Notes under the pieces: generated by a model
Told to the model about the DNA's origin: nothing
Databases searched by the model: none
Seen by the model: only the letters and a program-made list of their open reading frames with translations
Shown here: in pieces, positions 1,311 through 22,788 of the stretch
Layout of the letters: every line of letters begins with the position of its first letter
Position numbering within the stretch: position 1 is the first letter of the stretch
Assembly: GCA_002167555.2 (NCBI GenBank)
Contig: NHDL02000001.1
Location: 59,370-88,700, forward strand
DNA: 29,331 bases
Origin: Deltaproteobacteria bacterium TMED58
Lineage (GTDB): Bacteria > Desulfobacterota_D > UBA1144
Direction: 5' to 3'
Program-made: the position numbers and the translations under genes

Positions 1311-3215
1311 ATGATGATATTTATAAAAAACGAAGAAGTTGAAGTAGAAGTTGGTAAAACTTTAGGAGAAGTTTTTTGCAAACTTAAATATGATAATTCA
1401 TTAATTGGGGCAATAGTTGATGGAAACCTTAAGGACTTATTTTATGTTGTACAAAAGGGAGAAAAAGTAGACCCAGTATTTAAAGATTCTGATAAAGGTC
1501 TAGGGCTTATAAGACATACAGCTGCACATGTATTAGCAGAGGCTGTTCAGTCAGTATATCCTGAAACAAAGGTTACAATTGGACCTGTTATAGATGACGG
1601 TTTTTATTATGATTTTTATTCAAAAAAGAACTTCACAGAAGATGATCTCGTACTTTTTGAAAAAAAAATGATTGAAATAATTAATAAAAAAATTCCCATC
1701 ACAAAAAAAGTTATTTCAAAAGATGATGCTCTAAATCATTTTAATTCTATGGGAGAAAGCTTTAAAGAAGAGTTAATTAATGACTTACCTAATAATGTGG
1801 AGATTTCATTATATTACCAAGATGAATGGTCTGATTTGTGTAAAGGTCCTCATGCTCCTAATACCTCGTATATAAAGTCATTTAAGTTGCTTAGCGTAGC
1901 TGGTTCTTATTGGAGGGGAGATGAAAATCGTGAATCCCTTCAAAGAATATATGGAACAGCTTTTTTTTCTAACAAAGACTTAAAAAAACATTTAACACTT
2001 TTAGAGGAAGCAAAGAAAAGAGACCATCGAAAACTTGGCAAAGAGCTTAATCTTTTTTCAATTACTGATGAAATTGGCCCAGGGCTAATTTTGTGGCATC
2101 CAAATGGAGCTATAATTAGGAGAATTATTGAAGATTATTGGAGAAAGGAACACGATGAGTCTGGCTATAGTCTAATTTTTACTCCTCATATTGCCAAAGC
2201 AGATTTATGGGAAACTTCAGGTCATACTGAATTTTATAGTGAAAATATGTTTTCACAAATGGATATTGATTCTAATAAATATCAAACAAAACCTATGAAT
2301 TGCCCATTTCATATCATGATTTACAAAAGTGAATTAAGAAGCTATAAGGATTTGCCAGTTAAGTTCGCGGAAATTGGTACAGTTTACAGGTACGAGCGAT
2401 CAGGAGTTCTTCATGGTCTATTCAGAGCAAGGGGATTTACTCAAGATGATGCACATATTTTTTGCACATTAGATCAAATAGAAGAAGAAGTCGAAAAAGT
2501 TATTAATTTAACTACAAAGTTTCTTAATACTTTTGGATTTAAAGATTATGAAATTTTTGTTTCTACTAAGCCTGCCAAATATGTTGGTTCTGACTCTGAG
2601 TGGGATCAGGCAACAAAAGCATTAAAGAATTCATTAGTCAATAAATCATTAGATTTCTCTATCGATGAGGGTGGAGGAGCTTTTTATGGCCCTAAAATAG
2701 ACCTTAAGATTAAGGATGTATTAGGTCGCTCATGGCAGTGCTCAACAGTTCAAGTTGATTTTAACTTACCAAAAAGATTTGACCTTAATTATATTTCACG
2801 TAATAATGATAGACTTCAGCCAGTAATGATTCATAGAGCAATCTTTGGGTCATTTGAAAGATTCTTTGGAATACTGATTGAGCATTATGGTGGAGCATTT
2901 CCTTTTTGGTTAGCGCCCGTTCAAGTTAAGATTCTAACAGTATCAGATGAGCAATTTGATTATTGTGATTTATTGTCTGAAACATTTAAGAAATCCAAAA
3001 TTAGGGTTGAATTTGATAAAAGGAATGAGAAGCTAGGTTTGAAAATAAGAGAAGCTGCAATAAGTAAAGTTCCTTATGTGATTACAATTGGTAAAGCTGA
3101 GGTTGAAAATAAGACTGTTAGTGTAAGGAAGTATGGCGGCGATCAATTAGGGGAATTAAAAGTTTCAGATTTTGTTGGTATTTTGAATAGTGAAAAAATG
3201 GAGGGTCTTTTATAA
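1311..3215 (+). CDS. thrS: Threonine--tRNA ligase
   Basis: This 634-residue class II aminoacyl-tRNA synthetase charges tRNA-Thr. Domains in order are the TGS domain (about 1-60), the editing domain, the class II catalytic core (about 245-535) and the anticodon-binding domain (about 540-634). The editing domain has HTAAH at 69-73 and a Cys/His pair at 177 and 181 in CKGPH, and would clear mischarged serine. Candidate zinc ligands of the active site are Cys331 (MNCP), His382 and His508. Length is normal for the family. Two in-frame ATGs (1311 and 1314) are possible starts; neither has a convincing Shine-Dalgarno sequence, and the tRNA ends 13 bases upstream. The stop codon overlaps the proposed AUA start of infC. 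Confidence 0.98.
   Translation: MMIFIKNEEVEVEVGKTLGEVFCKLKYDNSLIGAIVDGNLKDLFYVVQKGEKVDPVFKDSDKGLGLIRHTAAHVLAEAVQSVYPETKVTIGPVIDDGFYYDFYSKKNFTEDDLVLFEKKMIEIINKKIPITKKVISKDDALNHFNSMGESFKEELINDLPNNVEISLYYQDEWSDLCKGPHAPNTSYIKSFKLLSVAGSYWRGDENRESLQRIYGTAFFSNKDLKKHLTLLEEAKKRDHRKLGKELNLFSITDEIGPGLILWHPNGAIIRRIIEDYWRKEHDESGYSLIFTPHIAKADLWETSGHTEFYSENMFSQMDIDSNKYQTKPMNCPFHIMIYKSELRSYKDLPVKFAEIGTVYRYERSGVLHGLFRARGFTQDDAHIFCTLDQIEEEVEKVINLTTKFLNTFGFKDYEIFVSTKPAKYVGSDSEWDQATKALKNSLVNKSLDFSIDEGGGAFYGPKIDLKIKDVLGRSWQCSTVQVDFNLPKRFDLNYISRNNDRLQPVMIHRAIFGSFERFFGILIEHYGGAFPFWLAPVQVKILTVSDEQFDYCDLLSETFKKSKIRVEFDKRNEKLGLKIREAAISKVPYVITIGKAEVENKTVSVRKYGGDQLGELKVSDFVGILNSEKMEGLL
3200..3214 (+). promoter_or_regulatory. 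infC ribosome binding site with AUA start codon
   Basis: GGAGG at 3200-3204 lies inside the end of thrS and is followed after 7 bases by ATA at 3212-3214. This is the best ribosome binding site in the translation operon, yet no ATG, GTG or TTG lies at the right distance. The ATA overlaps the thrS stop as ATAA, an arrangement like the common ATGA coupling. It is used here to set the infC start. Confidence 0.75.
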
Positions 3216-3790
3216 AAAGAAAAAAAAGTAGTCCAAGAAAACCTTTGCAAAGGATTAATACTTCGATTAGGGCTAAGGAAGTTAGACTTATTGGTTTAGA
3301 TGGTTCGCAGGTTGGCATAGTTTCTATTGATGAAGCATTAAAAGCTGCAAGATCAAGTTCAACCGATTTAGTTGAAATCTCACCAGATGCAAAGCCCCCA
3401 GTATGCAAGGTAATGGATTATGGAAAATTTCTATATGATCAGAAAAAGCAGCAGGCTAGTCAAAAAAAGACCAAAGCACAAGTTTTAAAGGAAATTAAAT
3501 TTAGACCTAATATTGGAGAAAATGATTTTAATGTTAAAATAAACAGGCTTAAAGATTTTCTTGCTGATGGCCATAAAGTGAAAATAAGACTATGGTTTAA
3601 GGGGAGAGAAATTGTTCATAAAAGCATTGGAGAAGAGTTGGTAGCAAAAATAATTGATACGGTTTCAGAATCAGGTGAATTAGATAATGAACCAAAATTT
3701 GAGGGCAAAAACTTAACATTAATGGTTTTGCCAAAAAAATTAAAGGCGGTTAAAAAAGAAAATGTCAGTTCAAAAAATGAAGTCCAATAG
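3212..3790 (+). CDS. infC: Translation initiation factor IF-3
   Basis: IF-3 binds the 30S subunit, keeps it apart from 50S and checks the start codon and initiator tRNA. The N-terminal domain is recognisable by RINTSIRAKEVRLIGLDGSQVGIV and LVEISPDAKPPVCKVMDYGK; the C-terminal domain by KEIKFRPNIGENDFNVKINR and KVKIRLWFKGREI. From the ATA at 3212 the protein is 192 residues with the basic leader KRKKSSPRKPLQ expected of the family. From the TTG at 3245 it would be 181 residues, lose that leader and have no ribosome binding site. IF-3 genes often use rare start codons (AUU in E. coli) so that IF-3 represses its own translation; the same logic probably applies here. The 3' end overlaps rpmI by 29 bases. 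Confidence 0.95.
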   Translation: MKRKKSSPRKPLQRINTSIRAKEVRLIGLDGSQVGIVSIDEALKAARSSSTDLVEISPDAKPPVCKVMDYGKFLYDQKKQQASQKKTKAQVLKEIKFRPNIGENDFNVKINRLKDFLADGHKVKIRLWFKGREIVHKSIGEELVAKIIDTVSESGELDNEPKFEGKNLTLMVLPKKLKAVKKENVSSKNEVQ

Positions 3791-3962
3791 AAGTGCAGCT
3801 AAAAGATTTAAGTTGAAGCCTAATGGTAAACTAAAAAGAATTAAAGGTAATAAGCACCATTGTAATGTCCATAAAGCTCAATCTAGAATTAGAAGATTGA
3901 AAGAATCTGGGACAGTGGAAGGTAAGAAAGCTAAAGATTTGAGAAAGGTAATTTTTTCATAG
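3762..3962 (+). CDS. rpmI: 50S ribosomal protein L35
   Basis: A 66-residue, strongly basic ribosomal protein with the L35 signature KMKSNRSAAKRFKLKPNGKLKR and a C-terminal R-RR-K cluster. It packs into 23S rRNA of the large subunit. The start at 3762 (MSVQKMKSNR) gives the family's usual length of about 65 residues but lies 29 bases inside infC. A second ATG at 3777 would remove five residues. Neither has a clear Shine-Dalgarno sequence, so translational coupling to infC is likely. The order infC-rpmI-rplT is widely conserved. Confidence 0.95.
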   Translation: MSVQKMKSNRSAAKRFKLKPNGKLKRIKGNKHHCNVHKAQSRIRRLKESGTVEGKKAKDLRKVIFS

Positions 3963-3974
3963 GATTGGATAGAT

Positions 3975-4316
3975 ATGAGAGTTAAAACAAGTGTTGCAAG
4001 TAAAAAAAGAAAAAAAAGACTTTTAAAACAGACTAAGGGGTTCTGGGGTCAAAGAAAAAATGTCTTTAAAAGAGCAAAAGAAACCTTATTAAGAGGAATG
4101 GCATTCTCTTATAGAGATAGGCGTGTTAAAAAAAGGACAAACAGAGCCTTATGGATTATTAGAATTAATGCAGCACTAAGAGAAGAAGGCGTTACATATA
4201 GTAAATTCATTCATTCTCTTAAATCTAAAAATATTGAGTTAGATAGAAAAGTTTTATCCGAATTAGCGATGAATAGCCCAGAAAAATTTAAGAAGCTAAT
4301 TGCTGAAGTAGTTTAG
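3975..4316 (+). CDS. rplT: 50S ribosomal protein L20
   Basis: A 113-residue basic protein with the L20 features: MRVKTSVASKKRKKRLLKQTKGFWGQ at the N-terminus (the flexible extension that threads 23S rRNA), RDRRVKKRTNRALWIIRINAALRE in the middle and a globular C-terminal part. It is an early assembly protein of the 50S subunit. It begins 12 bases after rpmI and closes the thrS-infC-rpmI-rplT operon. In E. coli L20 represses rpmI and its own synthesis through an mRNA pseudoknot; I could not identify a comparable structure here. Confidence 0.97.
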   Translation: MRVKTSVASKKRKKRLLKQTKGFWGQRKNVFKRAKETLLRGMAFSYRDRRVKKRTNRALWIIRINAALREEGVTYSKFIHSLKSKNIELDRKVLSELAMNSPEKFKKLIAEVV

Positions 4317-20832: not shown

Positions 20833-22026
20833 ATGCAATTCCTAGACCCAAAAAAACAATTAGAAATAATACTTGAAAATGTATCAGAAGTAATACCTGT
20901 AGACGAATTATTAGATAAACTCATAACCTCTTTTAAAAAAAATACTCCTTTGAAAATTAAGGCAGGTTTTGATCCTACATCATCTGACTTACATCTTGGC
21001 CATTCTTTATTACTTAAAAAATTAAAAGTATTTCAAGATTTGGGTCATGAAATTAATTTTTTAATTGGTGATTTTACTGCAATGATTGGTGACCCTACTG
21101 GAAGAGATAAGACCCGAAAGCCACTTTCAGCGGATGAAATAGAAATCAACGCATCTACATACAAGCAGCAAATGTTTAAAGTTTTAGATAAAAAGAATGT
21201 AAAAATTTTTTATAATTCAAAATGGTTTGATACTTTCAATTTGAAGGAACTTATAGGCCTCTCTTCATTGGAAAATGTAGCAAGATTATTAGAAAGAGAT
21301 GATTTTAAGAAAAGATATAAATCAGGCGAGCCAATAACGGTAACAGAGTTTCTTTATCCCATATTACAAGCTTATGATTCGGTTGTTCTCTCCTCAGACG
21401 TTGAGTTAGGTGGGACAGATCAAAGATTTAATATCCTTTTAGGTAGACAAATACAGAAGTCTTTTAATGTTCCAGAACAAGTAGGTGTCTTCCTTCCAAT
21501 ATTAGAGGGATTAGATGGAAAAATGAAAATGTCAAAGAGTTTAAATAATTATATAAGCCTGAATGATTCATTTGATGATATGTTTGGAAAAGTGATGTCA
21601 GTCTCAGATGATTTAATGCAAAGATATATTAATCTTCTTTTCAATAATGAAATCAGTCTCTTTGATTCTATTGAAAGTCCTTTGGAAAGAAAAAAGTTAT
21701 TGGGAATGAAAATAGTTTCAGAGTATTATGCAGAGAATTTGTCTCGATTAGCTAAAGATAATTTTGAAAAGAAATTTAGCAAAAAGGATTTTCCTAGTGA
21801 TTTAAAAGAAATTGAAGTCGATTTAGCTGGAAAAAAATTTTTAGATGTACTTTTTGAGGTAACGAAAGAATCCTTTTCAAAATCAGAATTAAAAAGATTA
21901 ATTAAAGACAATGCAGTAGAAGTTAATGGAGAAAAATTTAATACTTTAGATTCATTACCAAAGTTTGAAAACTCTTGGAAGCTAAAATTGGGCAAGAGAA
22001 ACTTTTATAATGTAAAAATTAAGTGA
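20833..22026 (+). CDS. tyrS: Tyrosine--tRNA ligase
   Basis: This class I aminoacyl-tRNA synthetase of 397 residues activates tyrosine. The HIGH-like motif is HLGH at 54-57 in DPTSSDLHLGHSLLLKKL. The KMSKS loop is at 232-236, and ELGGTDQRFNILLGR lies between them. A C-terminal S4 RNA-binding domain (about 335-395, with FSKSELKRLIKDNAVEVNGEKF) contacts the tRNA. Length fits the roughly 400-residue branch. The stop codon at 22024-22026 overlaps the 3' end of the RNase P RNA, which is transcribed from the opposite strand. Confidence 0.97.
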   Translation: MQFLDPKKQLEIILENVSEVIPVDELLDKLITSFKKNTPLKIKAGFDPTSSDLHLGHSLLLKKLKVFQDLGHEINFLIGDFTAMIGDPTGRDKTRKPLSADEIEINASTYKQQMFKVLDKKNVKIFYNSKWFDTFNLKELIGLSSLENVARLLERDDFKKRYKSGEPITVTEFLYPILQAYDSVVLSSDVELGGTDQRFNILLGRQIQKSFNVPEQVGVFLPILEGLDGKMKMSKSLNNYISLNDSFDDMFGKVMSVSDDLMQRYINLLFNNEISLFDSIESPLERKKLLGMKIVSEYYAENLSRLAKDNFEKKFSKKDFPSDLKEIEVDLAGKKFLDVLFEVTKESFSKSELKRLIKDNAVEVNGEKFNTLDSLPKFENSWKLKLGKRNFYNVKIK

Positions 22027-22372
22027 GTGGATTAGTAAGCCGAATTCTGTTCTATGTGATCATCTATCTAAGGCAATAATTACTTATTACCTTTAGCGAC
22101 CTACCCCGAAGCATTTGGAAGGGATACCAGCTTCTATACATGGTCTTTCTCCTGATGGGGTTTACCTAGCCAGAATTTGTTACCAAAACTGCGGTGGTCT
22201 CTTACACCACCTTTTCACCCTTACCGTTAATATCACGTGTTTATTAATGGCGGTTATTTTCTGTGGCACTTTCCATTGCCTTTCGACATCTGGGCGTTAC
22301 CCAGCATCAATTCCCTTAGGAGTTCGGACTTTCCTCTTGTATGTAAAATACAAGCGATCACTCAATCCACTC
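22025..22372 (-). ncRNA. rnpB: RNase P RNA (class A)
   Basis: The minus strand contains the conserved RNase P RNA core: GGAAAGTCCGAACTCC (22334-22319), ending with ACAGAATTCGGCTTAC around 22050-22035. The L15 region CTAGGTAAACCCC (about 22169-22157) carries the GGU that pairs with the tRNA 3' CCA. The two ends pair perfectly: GAGTGGATT (22372-22364) with AATCCACTC (22033-22025), nine base pairs of helix P1. This gives a length of about 348 bases. As the catalytic RNA of RNase P it cleaves tRNA 5' leaders. It begins 11 bases after the rnhA stop and its 3' end overlaps the tyrS stop codon by two bases. Long open frames on the plus strand here are accidental. Confidence 0.96.
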
Positions 22373-22376
22373 CACA

Positions 22377-22406
22377 ATATTATTTACGAAATTGCATCTT
22401 TTGCAA
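22377..22406 (-). promoter_or_regulatory. Possible rnpB promoter inside the end of rnhA
   Basis: TTGCAA (22406-22401), an 18-base spacer and TAATAT (22382-22377) lie just ahead of the RNA. The -10 box is 4 bases from the predicted 5' end, slightly closer than usual, so the true 5' end may be a few bases further in or come from processing of a longer transcript. Confidence 0.4.
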
Positions 22407-22788
22407 GCTTATCTGCGATGGTATTTAATTCTCTAGGAATATAATTTACTGTTATAGCAGATTTGATTTCTTTCTTAAGACTTTGAGCTTTGATTAAAAG
22501 AAGAGATAAATTTTTTTCCTTGCACTTCCATTTATTATTAAATTGCATACAAATTAGTTGTGAATCAGAAAAAATTTCAATATTACTGTATGCAAGCTCC
22601 TTTTTAATAATAGTTTCAAGACATATAATTAAAGCTTGATATTCAGCTATATTATTTGTCACGGTCCCCTCTAATGGCAAAGATATTCTTTCTTCAATAT
22701 TTTCGTTTGCTATAAATATTCCTACCCCGCCAGTACCAGGATTTGGTTGGCAGGCTCCATCTATAAAAATTTTTATATTATCCTTCAT
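22384..22788 (-). CDS. RNase HI-family protein
   Basis: A small RNase H fold protein of 134 residues. The four catalytic acidic residues are all visible: Asp10 (FIDGACQPNPG), Glu49 (NIAEYQAL), Asp75 (IFSDSQL) and Asp126 (YIPRELNTIADKLA). The family degrades the RNA strand of RNA:DNA hybrids, such as Okazaki primers and R-loops. It lacks the basic handle of E. coli RNase HI and is closer to the short RVT_3/YpdQ-like group, so it is called by family rather than as rnhA. Its start overlaps the stop of the zinc-ribbon gene as ATGA, and rnpB follows 11 bases after its stop. Confidence 0.92.
   Translation of the reverse strand: MKDNIKIFIDGACQPNPGTGGVGIFIANENIEERISLPLEGTVTNNIAEYQALIICLETIIKKELAYSNIEIFSDSQLICMQFNNKWKCKEKNLSLLLIKAQSLKKEIKSAITVNYIPRELNTIADKLAKDAIS

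Follow-up and report, generated by a model that had tools for sequence, protein, structure and literature searches.

A predicted AUA start codon of infC that overlaps the thrS stop codon in a deltaproteobacterial genome and its relatives

In a window of 29,331 nucleotides (the whole stretch of DNA that was analysed) from the small marine bacterium Deltaproteobacteria bacterium TMED58, the gene for translation initiation factor IF3, infC, almost certainly starts at an AUA codon at 3212. This codon shares bases with the stop of the upstream gene, thrS. The start codon, its Shine-Dalgarno (SD) sequence and the overlap are established, as far as sequence and comparison can establish them. We consider it very likely that infC starts at this AUA, that IF3 feeds back on a start of the AUH class, and that the thrS stop codon delivers ribosomes to it. 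Within this reading, self-repression by IF3 is proposed by analogy with E. coli, and translational coupling to thrS is suggested by the geometry of the overlap. The only unusual element of the start is its AUAR overlap with thrS, which is retained across most of the phylum.

The infC reading frame and its start codon

The features of the thrS-infC junction are as follows.

1311..3215, forward strand: thrS, threonyl-tRNA synthetase, an ORF of 634 aa whose stop codon TAA (3213-3215) overlaps the infC start
3191..3193, forward strand: TGA, the in-frame stop that bounds the infC frame on the upstream side
3200..3204, forward strand: GGAGG, SD sequence, inside thrS and 7 nt (3205-3211) before the ATA
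3212..3214, forward strand: ATA, predicted infC start codon, read as fMet, from the phylum comparison and the lack of an earlier standard start
3212..3215, forward strand: ATAA, 4-nt overlap of infC start and thrS stop, with a 4-nt overlap also in relatives
3212..3790, forward strand: infC, encoding IF3, 192 aa counted from the ATA, named from TIGR00168 and a PDB match
3245..3247, forward strand: TTG, rejected alternative start and probable internal Leu codon, without an SD and not conserved

The open infC frame begins with the codon that follows the TGA and runs to the stop codon at 3788-3790, and its first letters are AAA AAT GGA GGG TCT TTT ATA AAA AGA AAA AAA AGT AGT CCA AGA AAA CCT TTG CAA AGG ATT AAT; the thrS frame ends with ...ATG GAG GGT CTT TTA TAA. 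Between the TGA at 3191-3193 and the TTG at 3245, the infC frame contains no ATG, GTG or TTG, and the ATA at 3212 is the sole AUH or CTG codon. The product is IF3, as it matched the NCBIfam infC equivalog TIGR00168 (E=3e-61; 206 bits, where the cut-off is 60), with 8jsg_A as the best PDB match (E=2e-47, residues 11-176). The 16S rRNA of the source genome ends with a normal anti-SD, GGATCACCTCCTTA. A sequence-only reading of this DNA had placed GGAGG at 3200-3204, 7 bases from an ATA overlapping the thrS TAA (junction A-TAA), and every one of these coordinates was correct. The unbroken frame that it described from the ATA into IF3 was borne out by the open frame and the TIGR00168 score, and the basic N-terminal leader that it noted is retained in the family.

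The TTG at 3245 was considered as the start of IF3, with the upstream ATA frame being untranslated or a chance extension. TTG is a standard start, the 181-aa protein that it would yield retains the conserved RIN..IRA..EVRL core, and short leaders before the IF3 core occur in some other phyla. Against this, no SD match of at least 4 nt precedes the TTG, in agreement with the sequence-only reading, which had called it the first standard start and one that lacks a ribosome binding site. The position is not conserved either: it is TTG, TTA or CTG within the genus (TTA or CTG in two members) and ATG in another genus, never with an SD, and it is ATG, AAT or AGT further off. In addition, the 11 codons from the ATA up to the TTG are conserved in relatives along with the SD, and the ATA is invariant; conservation of these leader residues had been named beforehand as a point on which the AUA start depended. 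An IF3 beginning at TTG 3245 is therefore most improbable, and this start was rejected for its lack of both an SD and conservation.

Start codon and thrS overlap across the phylum

We then compared infC 5' regions among relatives, which was the check proposed in the sequence-only reading. The genomes numbered 5 in the genus, 14 in the family, 14 in the order and 57 in both the class and the phylum (8 families). An IF3 match was found in 52 of the 57 phylum genomes, and the comparison covered 50 loci from seven families, namely the source genome and 49 relatives. In the alignment, the start column was ATA in all 50 loci, and in each an ATA with a preceding SD-like sequence heads the infC frame. 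An SD match of at least 5 nt precedes the ATA in 46/50 loci as compared to 8% of body codons, and a match of at least 4 nt is present in 49/50. One locus (L083) has GGGGG in place of GGAGG and is scored as having no SD under exact matching.

ATA could have been invariant simply as the Ile codon that an AT-rich genome uses by default. Ile codons in the infC bodies of the 50 loci were ATA (336), ATT (270) and ATC (113). However, four conserved internal Ile columns were ATA in only 12/50, 5/41, 23/50 and 28/49 loci, and such columns ranged from 0 to 57% ATA across the phylum and from 0 to 46% in the family of the source genome. Since ATA at the start column was found in 50/50 loci, we rejected default codon usage as the explanation.

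None of the 50 loci has ATG at the start site, though ATGA would keep the overlap. Several relatives (e.g., L087, L088, L092 and L093) lack any canonical in-frame start before the IF3 core, and some members of the phylum have an in-frame ATG, GTG or TTG either before or after the ATA, with no SD match. A standard ATG elsewhere in relatives would have spoken against the AUA start; none of the relatives offers a usable standard start in place of the ATA. Thus, infC of the source genome has a non-canonical AUH start with an SD, no canonical alternative and conservation in relatives.

The thrS gene lies upstream of infC in all 50 loci, as determined by tblastn with a C-terminal stretch of thrS. 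In 37/50 loci, the thrS stop and the infC ATA overlap by 4 nt, as ATAA (15 loci) or ATAG (22 loci), and this arrangement is present in the distant families f1, f2, f5, f7 and f8; ATGA, the usual 4-nt overlap, was never found among the 50. The source genes form such a pair, with the stop and start sharing ATAA and the GGAGG lying inside thrS. The overlap is common in the phylum and probably old. The remaining 13 loci keep the ATA with gaps between thrS and infC ranging from -17 to +18, indicating that the AUA does not depend on the overlap. The sequence-only reading had regarded the start as a stop-coupled ATAA version of the device; the overlap is indeed widespread in the phylum, but these 13 loci show that it is unnecessary for AUA. 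The base at +4 after the ATA is A or G in 49/50 loci, so that most of the non-overlapping loci, too, contain TAA or TAG there.

One genus of family f8 contains both arrangements. L128 reads CGAACAGAGATAGCT and has the 4-nt overlap, while L103 reads CGAGTAGAGATAGCT, in which a change of CAG to TAG makes an earlier thrS stop and the ATA is unchanged. Compared to L128, a new stop shortens thrS by two codons in L097, L098, L103, L110, L111 and L112. In these six loci, the 4-nt overlap has ended while the infC ATA and SD stay, providing a natural uncoupling experiment.

infC starts in other bacteria and the surrounding operon

To place the AUA start among infC genes at large, we used 120 infC loci, with about 30 from each of four other phyla, in a sample centred on deltaproteobacterial-type, clostridial, alphaproteobacterial and actinobacterial genomes. 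The SD-supported starts were ATA (43), ATC (33), ATT (33), CTG (2), ATG (1), GTG (1) and TTG (1), with a clear SD absent in 6/120 loci; the starts were called automatically, and a few errors are to be expected. AUH starts are thus the rule for infC in these four phyla, and AUA accounts for about a third. The 4-nt ATAA overlap with thrS was seen in only one of the 120 loci (L218) and in none of a further set of infC loci that we examined. Other phyla use an infC ATA without the thrS overlap, and in many bacteria infC lies away from the thrS end or is unlinked from thrS. In the phylum sample around L050, infC appears to use CTG starts in L160, where the CTG is preceded by AAGGAGG, and in L155, where it overlaps the thrS stop as CTGA and has a weak SD. 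If true, these would be further IF3-sensitive variants.

Non-AUG infC starts have been described in several bacteria. The E. coli gene starts with ATT (AUU), with autoregulation by IF3 shown by experiment, and the Streptomyces gene with AUC (PMC5472188); an ATT start is given for Listeria (PMC13068326). In S. aureus, an AUA start was mapped by ribosome profiling with retapamulin-stalled ribosomes, and an extended SD is described there (PMC13009471). The view in the sequence-only reading that AUA is a less common version of the device therefore did not hold, given this mapped start and the share of AUA in the four phyla. Since AUA, AUU and AUC starts are usual for infC across bacteria, the source infC is an ordinary example of a known device; it is a predicted member of the IF3-sensitive non-AUG infC starts, with a start codon that is well supported on comparative grounds.

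E. coli infC (L133) resembles that of the source genome in having thrS directly upstream, an SD and a non-AUG AUH start; the RIN motif of either protein also has its R at residue 14, counting from the start codon. The two differ in the start codon itself (AUU versus AUA), in the thrS stop, a TAA that lies 3 nt before the infC start in E. coli but overlaps it in the source genome, and in that autoregulation is experimental for E. coli and proposed from E. coli for the source. S. aureus shares the AUA start, which was mapped there by stalled ribosomes and is known here from comparison; the available part of the S. aureus account does not mention a thrS overlap, unlike the junction described here (PMC13009471). 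The Streptomyces start is likewise AUH but differs in being AUC. Termination-reinitiation has been shown at 4-nt AUGA overlaps of other gene pairs, and 4-nt stop/start overlaps usually couple translation (PMC6728339). Those ATGA overlaps, like the present one, combine a 4-nt stop/start overlap with an intragenic SD, but share a TGA stop, whereas overlaps in the source phylum have an AUA start and share TAA or TAG.

Downstream, the thrS-infC-rpmI-rplT run is completed by two genes, and an RNA gene lies elsewhere in the window.

3762..3962, forward strand: rpmI (L35), downstream operon gene overlapping the infC end; an ORF named from sequence
3975..4316, forward strand: rplT (L20), last gene of the run; an ORF named from sequence
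22020-22373, reverse strand: RNase P RNA, class A, Rfam match of 285 bits

The rpmI ORF starts at an ATG (3762) inside the infC end, giving a 29-base overlap (3762-3790) in another frame, with a second in-frame ATG, at 3777, likewise within infC. The corresponding gap in E. coli is about 96 bases, so the operon is tighter in the source genome. No Rfam element was detected near infC or rplT, and no known L20-type leader was found; the only Rfam matches in the whole window were RNase P and two tRNAs. The RNase P RNA is flanked by the end of tyrS at 22026, with whose 3' end it shares about 7 bases, and by an RNase HI-like ORF (22384-22788, reverse strand).

Proposed control of IF3 synthesis

In the mechanism that we propose, GGAGG at 3200-3204 would position the ribosome on the AUA at 3212, which would be decoded by initiator fMet-tRNA. 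Because AUA belongs to the AUH starts that IF3 disfavours, as it does AUU and AUC, free IF3 would lower its own synthesis, in a negative feedback like that known for the AUU start of E. coli. Ribosomes ending thrS may be delivered onto the infC start at the shared AUAA (AUAG in many relatives). The bases common to the stop and start codons should make the amount of IF3 depend on translation of thrS as well. RNA folding of 3170-3260 revealed no special structure (z=0.44). Nothing in this stretch therefore suggests a structural switch around the SD, which we set aside as unsupported, and it is the geometry of the overlap that argues for coupling.

AUAA and AUAG contain a stop codon, while AUUN and AUCN cannot; AUA is therefore the only AUH codon that fits a 4-nt overlap, and so meets non-AUG control and stop/start overlap together. 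This may be why AUA is fixed across the phylum; IF3 levels would then be set both by feedback and by the ribosomes arriving from thrS, at a reinitiation start open to rejection by IF3 itself. We offer this extension only tentatively, since the ATA is retained without overlap and is frequent in other phyla, both of which make the overlap a weaker reason for its fixation.

The same junction could be read with less regulation. AUA might be the start but be kept only by the thrS stop written in the overlap, as a constraint on sequence and not through IF3 feedback; the 37 overlapping loci and the purine at +4 in 49/50 agree with this. ATGA, however, would do just as well for the overlap and is found in 0/50 loci, the ATA stays in the 13 loci with a moved thrS stop (e.g., L103 vs L128), and infC as a rule begins with AUH in phyla that lack the overlap, making a purely sequence-based constraint improbable. 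It is somewhat more conceivable, though still doubtful, that the AUA is IF3-sensitive and the overlap has no coupling role, with infC initiating independently from its own SD and possibly its own promoter. A strong SD is retained throughout the phylum loci, and infC is separated from the thrS end in many bacteria. Internal promoters can serve infC in other bacteria. What speaks against independent initiation is that the overlap is kept across distant families (f1, f2, f5, f7 and f8), and that such overlaps usually couple translation (PMC6728339). We thus favour the reading in which IF3 feedback and ribosome delivery from thrS both act on the AUA start.

Across this phylum, IF3 would be annotated wrongly by gene finders limited to ATG, GTG and TTG. 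The AUAA/AUAG junction seen phylum-wide provides a natural setting in which to ask if IF3 discriminates start codons in reinitiation as it does in new initiation; otherwise, the source infC is one more instance of a well-known autoregulatory device.
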